Source: an uncultured Fibrobacter sp. (GTDB lineage: Bacteria; Fibrobacterota; Fibrobacteria; Fibrobacterales; Fibrobacteraceae). From it: 64,000 nt of DNA. The stretch's first letter is position 1. Each line of letters begins with the position of its first letter. Under the pieces are notes generated by a model. The model was not told where the DNA came from. It ran no database searches and saw only the letters and a program-made list of their open reading frames with translations. Shown piece by piece: positions 60,951-62,557 of this stretch. The DNA is taken from the NCBI RefSeq assembly GCF_947305105.1, contig NZ_CAMZCS010000005.1:1-64000 (forward strand). The letters are read 5' to 3'. The position numbers and the translations under genes are program-made.

Positions 60951-62336
60951 TTAACCCTCAACCTTCGGAAGCTGGGCGAGGCTCTTCGCGATGTCTTCAT
61001 CCGTCGGGATGTAGTCGTTCATTTCGCCGTCGTTGAACTTCTGGTAGGCGACCATGTCGAAGTAACCTGTGCCGGTGAGGCCGAACACGATGTTCTTGGC
61101 CTGGCCGTTTTCCTTGCACTTGAGGGCTTCGTCGATCGTCGCGCGGATGGCGTGGCTGGATTCCGGAGCCGGGAGGATGCCTTCGGTCTGGGCGAAGAGC
61201 TTGGCGGCTTCGAACACCTTGGTCTGTTCCACGGACGTTGCACGCATCAGGCCCTGATCGTAGAGTTCAGAGAGGATGCTGCTCATGCCGTGGTAGCGGA
61301 GGCCACCGGCGTGGTTGGCAGACGGGATGAAACTGGAGCCCAGCGTGTACATCTTGGCGAGCGGGCAGACCTTGCCGGTATCGCAGAAGTCGTAGGCGTA
61401 CTTACCGCGGGTGAAGCTCGGGCAGCTTGCCGGTTCCACGGCGAGAATGTCGTAGTCGGCTTCGCCACGGAGCTTTTCACCGACGAACGGGCTGATAAGG
61501 CCACCGAGGTTGGAACCACCGCCGGCGCAACCGATGATGAGGTCGGCCTTCACGCCGATCTTGTCGAGGGCGGCCTTCGTCTCGAGACCGATGACGGACT
61601 GGTGCAGCAGCACCTGGTTCAGCACGGAACCGAGAACGTAGCGGTAACCCGGCTGCTTCACGGCGGCTTCAACGGCTTCGGAAATGGCGCAGCCGAGGCT
61701 ACCCGTGGTGCCCGGGAATTCGGCGTTGATCTTCTTGCCGATTTCGGTGGTCATGGACGGGGACGGGGTGACGCTTGCACCGTAGGTGCGCATGACTTCG
61801 CGGCGGAACGGCTTCTGCTCGTAAGAAACCTTCACCATATAGACCTGGCAGTCAATGCCGAAGAAGGCCGATGCCATCGAGAGGGCGGTGCCCCACTGGC
61901 CTGCACCCGTTTCGGTGGTCACACCCTTGAGGCCTTGCTTCTTGGCGTAGTAGGCCTGGGCGATGGCGGAGTTGAGCTTGTGGGAACCCGAGGTGTTGTT
62001 GCCTTCGAACTTGTAGTAGATGTGGGCCGGAGTGCCGAGGGCCTGTTCGAGGAAGTAGGCGCGGACCAGCGGCGACGGACGGTACATCTTGTAGAACGTG
62101 AGAATGTCTTCGGGAATTTCGAAGAAGCGGGTGTCGTTGTCGAGTTCCTGCTTGATGAGCTCGTCGCAGAACACGGGCTGCAGGTCTTCGAAAGTCACGG
62201 GCTTGCCGGTACCCGGGTTCAGGAGCGGTGCGGGCTTTTTCTTCATGTCGGCACGTACGTTGTACCATGCCTTCGGGAGTTCGTTTTCTTCGAGGTAAGT
62301 CTTGACCGGGCCGTCGAGTTTGAGAGAGTTTCTCAT
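60951..62336 (-). CDS. trpB: Tryptophan synthase beta chain, TrpB2 type
   Basis: 461 residues. It belongs to the long TrpB2 class: N-terminal extension with AWYNVRADM, RPSPLVRAYFLEQALG, the PLP lysine in NTSGSHKLNSA, TETGAGQWGTALS, the phosphate loop GCAGGGSNLGG, and a C-terminus with GLTGTGYFDM. It joins indole to serine to make tryptophan and may work without TrpA. A trp-type attenuator with a WWW leader peptide precedes it, showing that it is controlled by tryptophan supply. GAAAGGAAAA precedes the ATG. Confidence 0.93.
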   Translation of the reverse strand: MRNSLKLDGPVKTYLEENELPKAWYNVRADMKKKPAPLLNPGTGKPVTFEDLQPVFCDELIKQELDNDTRFFEIPEDILTFYKMYRPSPLVRAYFLEQALGTPAHIYYKFEGNNTSGSHKLNSAIAQAYYAKKQGLKGVTTETGAGQWGTALSMASAFFGIDCQVYMVKVSYEQKPFRREVMRTYGASVTPSPSMTTEIGKKINAEFPGTTGSLGCAISEAVEAAVKQPGYRYVLGSVLNQVLLHQSVIGLETKAALDKIGVKADLIIGCAGGGSNLGGLISPFVGEKLRGEADYDILAVEPASCPSFTRGKYAYDFCDTGKVCPLAKMYTLGSSFIPSANHAGGLRYHGMSSILSELYDQGLMRATSVEQTKVFEAAKLFAQTEGILPAPESSHAIRATIDEALKCKENGQAKNIVFGLTGTGYFDMVAYQKFNDGEMNDYIPTDEDIAKSLAQLPKVEG

Positions 62337-62403: not shown

Positions 62404-62433
62404 CAAAAAAATTGGCTCCCTTTGAGGAGCCTG
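62404..62433 (-). terminator. Attenuator terminator in the trpB leader
   Basis: On the minus strand, GGCTCC-TCAAAG-GGAGCC is followed by AATTTTTTT. The segment AGGAGTCTG (62463-62471 on the plus strand as its complement) can pair with CAGGCTCCT of the terminator's first arm, giving an alternative antiterminator. This is the arrangement of ribosome-mediated trp attenuation. Confidence 0.8.
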
Positions 62434-62473
62434 CTTCTTTTTGAATACCGTAGCAAAAATACCAGACTCCTAA

Positions 62474-62521
62474 CTATAGGGCCTGCCACCACCAGAAGTT
62501 GATGCTTGCTACGAATTTCAT
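62474..62521 (-). CDS. trpL: trp leader peptide (MKFVASINFWWWQAL)
   Basis: Fifteen residues with three tandem Trp codons near the end. It is followed 40 nt later by an intrinsic terminator and then trpB2. When charged tRNA-Trp is scarce the ribosome would stall on the Trp codons and favour the antiterminator. TATATT lies 7 nt before its ATG with TTGCCA 17 nt further up, so the leader peptide itself may be leaderless. Confidence 0.82.
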   Translation of the reverse strand: MKFVASINFWWWQAL

Positions 62522-62528
62522 GTGCCGA

Positions 62529-62557
62529 AATATACCTAAAAATGGGCTTTTTGGCAA
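62529..62557 (-). promoter_or_regulatory. trpL-trpB promoter
   Basis: On the minus strand, TTGCCA (62552-62557), a 17-nt spacer and TATATT (62529-62534). The -10 box ends 7 nt before the trpL ATG. Confidence 0.65.

Follow-up and report, generated by a model that had tools for sequence, protein, structure and literature searches.

How a lone trpB2 gene might respond to the supply of tryptophan is the question raised by one locus on a contig of an uncultured Fibrobacter sp., a genome whose nearest named record, also Fibrobacter, is 98% identical. In the window, that is, the whole stretch of 64,000 nucleotides analysed here, the segment at 62404-62557 had been singled out in a preliminary description as a ribosome-mediated trp attenuator, with a 15-residue leader peptide containing three tandem Trp codons, an antiterminator/terminator pair and a T run. 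All of these parts were found, and they lie on the minus strand, which that description had not specified. The segment is very probably a Trp transcription attenuator of the enteric trp type, as judged from the sequence, with a leader peptide translated from a leaderless RNA, and it is one of at least four. The layout of the locus, a chance test, the conservation of the Trp codons and terminator and the gene context all support the mechanism first proposed.

Architecture of the trpB2 leader

On the minus strand, the strand on which all elements of this leader are read, the locus begins with a promoter-like site. Its -35 box TTGCCA (62552..62557) and -10 box TATATT (62529..62534) are separated by 17 nt, and the ATG of trpL follows 7 nt after the -10 box, a spacing from which transcription is predicted to start at 62521, the A of this ATG. 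The leader ORF, MKFVASINFWWWQAL plus stop codon (62521..62474), encodes 15 aa and is conserved in relatives; the three tandem TGG triplets at codons 10-12 (62486..62494) form invariant columns of the alignment. An in-frame TTG at 62557 was considered as an earlier start of trpL and rejected, being part of the -35 box.

Three alternative helices can be drawn downstream of the Trp codons. Region 1, CAGGCCCTA (62477..62485), comes just after these codons and pairs with region 2, AGGAGTCTG (62463..62471), which begins 2 nt past the trpL stop codon and can pair with region 3 instead. Region 3, CAGGCTCCT (62425..62433), has two possible partners: with region 2 it makes the antiterminator, with region 4 (62414-62420) the terminator. 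The terminator hairpin 3:4 occupies 62414..62431 and, together with a T7 run (62405..62411), reads GGCTCC-TCAAA-GGGAGCC + T7 over 62431..62405. A further helix, termed helix 0, has its 5' arm at 62505..62514, within trpL codons 3-6, and its 3' arm at 62448..62457, in the linker after region 2.

These parts suggest the following course of events. The first transcribed base would be the A of the trpL ATG, with a ribosome initiating on this 5' AUG behind the RNA polymerase. When charged Trp-tRNA is scarce, this ribosome would stall at codons 10-12 and mask region 1, allowing the 2:3 antiterminator to form and trpB2 to be transcribed; when Trp is plentiful, a ribosome at the stop codon would mask region 2, and the 3:4 hairpin would terminate transcription. 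Without a ribosome, helix 0 and the 1:2 helix would form, and termination would again be the default. The two masking steps are assigned from the coordinates and the known size of the ribosome footprint, which would cover region 1 when the ribosome is on the Trp codons and region 2 when it is at the stop.

Folding, chance expectation and pairing energies

Folding of the leader, recommended in the preliminary description, gave -51.7 kcal/mol for the minus strand (z = -3.8 versus shuffles). The 1:2, 2:3 and 3:4 helices are mutually exclusive, and their regions are complementary in all leaders compared. The plus strand was rejected as the leader strand, since its fold is much weaker (-39.4, z -2.7) and no such leader is present there. 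Short ORFs and hairpins are each common singly; that one of the former should merely happen to lie beside an ordinary terminator here is nevertheless barely credible, because 300 dinucleotide-resampled windows yielded two short ORFs with WWW and none (0/300) with a terminator, whereas the real window has one WWW leader ORF accompanied by both a terminator and a -10 box. The conservation and gene context described below argue against a chance resemblance as well.

In the window leader, the pairing energies are -12.3 kcal/mol for the 1:2 segment, -16.3 kcal/mol for 2:3 with region 1 masked and -11.4 kcal/mol for 3:4 alone. With all of 50-110 free, and hence regions 2-4, the terminator form is slightly favoured (-16.9 versus -16.3 kcal/mol, the latter for the shorter 2:3 RNA); antitermination control would therefore be kinetic. 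Among the trpE leaders compared (n=22), one position co-varies across regions 2, 3 and 4, reading C/G/C in 20 and U/A/U in 2, the pattern demanded by exclusive 2:3 and 3:4 helices; the U/A/U leaders are related, and the triple co-variation may represent one event. In the trpB2 leaders one pair of the 1:2 helix is compensated, and pairing support otherwise comes mostly from invariant pairs; helix counts from alignment A3, in which the aligner had shifted region 2 in two rows, were excluded. Rfam searches of the leader at gathering and relaxed thresholds gave no credible match, and no attenuator model such as Trp_leader was hit. The leader is outside any Rfam family, yet in its predicted working it is like Rfam leader families such as Trp_leader.

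Predicted leaderless start of trpL

A search for Trp leaders that ignored promoters, made upstream of trpE, trpB1 and trpB2, retrieved 74 distinct leaders. A promoter of the form TTGNC-N17/18-TANNNT is present in 70 of them, and in 67/70 the ATG stands 6-8 nt past the -10 box. The remaining three were scored at 1 nt, apparently on account of an extra ATG inside the discriminator: leaders of the TAGTTT-TATG form carry such an ATG in addition to one at 6-7 nt. Spacing of this kind at a sigma-70 promoter is expected to put the first transcribed base at the A of the ATG or roughly one base upstream of it, and in all trpB2 leaders this A is preceded by a pyrimidine. A leaderless trpL RNA starting at its own ATG, which had been raised as a possibility, is thus a well-supported prediction.

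The same layout recurs in the genome at large. In a sample of 304 long ORFs (G000 contigs C1 and C5, comprising L158-L177 and the window), TANNTT stands 6, 7 and 8 nt before the ATG in 26, 11 and 12 cases, against a background of about 1.4 per position further upstream, so that about 16% of the sampled genes have a -10-like box at 6-8 nt. The preliminary description had regarded a leaderless trpL as unusual; this part of it was not borne out: S. lividans (PMC8079986) and S. meliloti (PMC7298713) are both reported to have such leaders, and in the Fibrobacter genome itself the layout is frequent.

It is unlikely, though less so than the other alternatives considered here, that the attenuator works as described with trpL placed on a longer 5' UTR, transcribed from an unrecognised promoter further upstream. 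The upstream intergenic region exceeds 100 bp, promoter types beyond the cover of the scan may be used, and the trpL start site is a predicted one. Against this reading stand the spacings of 17 and 6-7 nt, which stay constant from one leader type to the next despite divergence of the spacer, discriminator and upstream flanks; the genome-wide enrichment of the -10 layout at 6-8 nt; and the single minus-strand promoter-like site found in the region scanned.

As a separate matter, the proportion of about 16% suggests that leaderless mRNAs may be common in Fibrobacter, a genus not named in a survey of leaderless genes (PMC3160421).

The trpB2 gene and its putative role

The gene downstream, trpB2 (60951..62336, minus strand), encodes a TrpB-like PLP enzyme of 461 aa. 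Its designation as TrpB2-type is supported by profile scores: the product passes NF009057 (676 bits, cut-off 366) and TIGR01415 (576, cut-off 519) and falls below the cut-off of the TrpB1 model TIGR00263 (146 bits, cut-off 392). The gene also stands alone, as first described, with neither trpA nor any other trp gene among the neighbouring ORFs, which from their reading we take to be a superoxide dismutase and a murC-type gene; the same genome has an ordinary trpBA in addition.

For TrpB2 the most likely activity is the synthesis of Trp from indole and serine; that it would do so without TrpA is supported indirectly by genomes from which trpA, trpB1 and trpE are missing. Two Fibrobacteraceae genomes, G104 (99% complete) and G121 (98%), have kept trpB2 with its leader and give no match to trpA, trpB1 or trpE, and the same pattern is seen in G007 (85% complete) and G170 (71%). 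All four match what one would expect of indole-salvaging Trp auxotrophs. Control of trpB2 by Trp, whether through an attenuator or, as noted below, a T-box, and its retention in pathway-poor genomes fit indole-to-Trp synthesis, which has been described for TrpB paralogues of Thermococcus according to work cited in PMC11085991. The attenuator would accordingly constitute functional evidence for a Trp-making TrpB2, clearest in the genomes that have no rest of the pathway.

In an Oscillospiraceae locus (L066, Candidatus Avoscillospira), a T-box precedes trpB2 at L066:2174-2415, with UGG at the apparent specifier position. This places trpB2 of a member of Bacillota under a different kind of Trp-sensing RNA.

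Conservation and patchy distribution of the leader

An exact leader pattern in which the two spacings could vary over 16-18 and 6-8 nt was found in 11 of the 101 genomes searched, and in every one the spacings are 17 and 7. The -35 box is TTG(C/T)CA, with the 17-nt spacing kept in 11/11, and in all ten loci with enough sequence the gene 3' of the leader is trpB2. A covariance model added Fibrobacter copies in G104, G105 and G117. It also retrieved related leaders outside the genus but within the family: before trpB2 in G121 and G170, before trpE in G162 and G163, and in G130 before a gene that we take, from reading its protein, to be trpC. Altogether, the leader with its Trp codons and terminator is conserved in about 15 Fibrobacter genomes and in another genus of the family. 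Two genera have kept the peptide, Trp codons, stop position and terminator before trpB2, and their flanks and promoter spacers have diverged.

The majority of Fibrobacter trpB2 genes, however, are without the leader; what precedes them, at a distance of a few tens of nt, is a promoter. On the midpoint-rooted trpB2 tree, in which Clostridia are close with regard to the origin of the gene (82-85% identity), the leader is clustered but patchy, and its distribution needs 5 changes; thus L010 carries the leader, and in its close relatives L012 and L014 a similar promoter is joined directly to the trpB2 start region. Losses, gains and exchanges are all possible in this history, and a single gain of the leader does not follow from the 5-change tree. 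Absence of conserved Trp codons or terminator in related strains had been named beforehand as grounds for abandoning the attenuator. Both are conserved wherever the leader occurs; the leader as a whole is not present throughout the genus. Sister genomes with the leader and with the directly joined promoter represent natural attenuator-plus/attenuator-minus pairs.

This patchiness, together with the loss of a stop codon from one leader (L285), is what would be expected if the leader were a decaying relic, still readable but no longer regulating trpB2. Such decay is quite improbable for the window copy, as all elements are intact in this genome and codons, stop position and helices are conserved across leader-bearing species.

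The exceptional leader itself stands before trpB2 of G075. Its sequence, MKIVTSINFWWWQIPSVMESGV, lacks the stop codon, and the frame runs through region 2, possibly marking a decaying attenuator.

Other probable trp attenuators of the same genome

The attenuator of trpB2 is not an isolated case, for in the same genome leaders of its kind also stand before trpE, trpBA and a trpC-trpF fusion. The trpE leader, MMIYATSATLNRRWWRGL, belongs to an attenuator on the plus strand (G000:C1:337704, L147), and the trpBA and trpC-trpF leaders, MKMNEAIRFNRWWWGSRT and MQIKVASTAKEFFANRWWWGSIG, to attenuators on the minus strand (G000:C9:35383 and C9:39782, L225). A scan blind to the amino acid, requiring a promoter, 6-8 nt, ATG, a short ORF and a terminator and covering 2.05 Mb (57% of the genome), detected exactly four leaders, all of them for Trp, before trpE, trpBA, trpCF and trpB2; within the same 2.05 Mb no convincing leader for another amino acid was found, with 5' UTRs of up to 60 nt allowed. 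Pattern and covariance-model searches for the known leader types covered the whole genome. The trpE-type pattern occurs in 65/151 genomes, which belong to the genus, to one other genus of its family and, within the same order, to a second family. By their sequence features, at least four related attenuators would coordinate the dispersed trpE, trpBA, trpCF and trpB2 loci.

The peptides of the four leaders differ strongly, and the Trp codons and pairing geometry are common to all, which fits regulation in cis. It is correspondingly improbable, to the same degree as decay, that the main action of the terminated leader RNA or of the peptide is in trans, along the lines proposed for Sinorhizobium rnTrpL/peTrpL, even though S. 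meliloti provides an example of a leaderless trpL RNA with such functions (PMC7298713) and the peptide sequence is well conserved among the trpB2 leaders.

A further structured element, equipped with a promoter of its own and a strong terminator, lies just upstream of the trpBA attenuator (L302, minus strand); it is also present at L305, L298 and L294. Its 13-bp closing helix, AUGAAAUUGGCAA/UUUGCCAAUUUCAU, includes some compensated pairs in four genomes. Trp codons are missing from the usual position in this element, which also gave no match in Rfam, and it looks like either a diverged tandem copy of an attenuator or an unknown regulatory RNA.

Helix 0 as a possible 5'-end gate

The leader ORF is complementary at its 5' end to the linker beyond region 2, and the resulting helix 0 has 10 bp in the window copy. 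The trpCF leader has a helix 0 of 9 bp whose sequence is unrelated to that of the window copy; the helix is weak in the trpE and trpBA leaders of this genome. In a swap test of 23 leaders, the leaders' own pairs of 5' end and linker beat swapped ones (2/20,000 permutations), and the same was seen with 15 divergent representatives (16/20,000 permutations), numbers that are not strict probabilities, the leaders being related.

Helix 0 had not been noticed before and, as a possible gate at the 5' end, is the most novel part of the finding. One may tentatively envisage that it shuts the 5' AUG once the linker has been made, so that a single pioneer ribosome would be admitted per transcript and the leader would act as a one-shot sensor, a distinct variant of attenuation in a four-locus Fibrobacteraceae trp regulon; as matters stand, we consider this scheme possible but doubtful. 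The leaderless layout in any case offers a clean test of whether initiation at the 5' end and a helix at the 5' end suit attenuation.

Comparison with known systems

A literature search revealed no report joining Fibrobacter, leader peptide, tryptophan and attenuation, and none for Fibrobacterota. The present analysis places classical ribosome-mediated Trp attenuation in this phylum, with separate copies at scattered trp genes rather than at one operon. In E. coli, the trp attenuator has tandem Trp codons near position 10, a stop codon before region 2, alternative 1:2, 2:3 and 3:4 helices and an intrinsic terminator. The Fibrobacter leader has in common with it the short tandem-Trp peptide, the position of the stop codon, the alternative pairings and the terminator. 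However, trpL of E. coli comes with a Shine-Dalgarno site and a 5' UTR and serves one trp operon, whereas no 5' UTR is predicted for the Fibrobacter leader, its target is a lone trpB2, separate copies stand at scattered trp loci, and helix 0 is added.

Closer in its 5' end is trpLE(G) of Sinorhizobium meliloti, whose RNA starts with the ATG of a tandem-Trp leader peptide and whose control extends to just one of three trp operons, trpE(G) (PMC7298713); phylum and peptide differ from those described here. Streptomyces lividans likewise has leaderless Trp leader peptides, trpL1 and trpL2, at separate genes, the separately transcribed trpE and trpS, with trpL2 containing just one Trp codon and lacking a U-rich tract (PMC8079986); its targets, phylum and sequences are different. 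More than one candidate Trp attenuator per genome was described for Corynebacterium diphtheriae, one of them before an operon named trpB2A (PMC1262725), but there trpB is paired with trpA, whereas the TIGR01415-type gene of Fibrobacter stands alone and four copies of the attenuator were found.

The T-box (RF00230) of the Oscillospiraceae locus is likewise a predicted Trp-responsive RNA control of an orthologous trpB2, although it senses tRNA directly, with neither leader peptide nor ribosome, unlike the Fibrobacter leader. The mechanism itself is classical, and both Sinorhizobium and Streptomyces provide earlier examples of a leaderless trpL.
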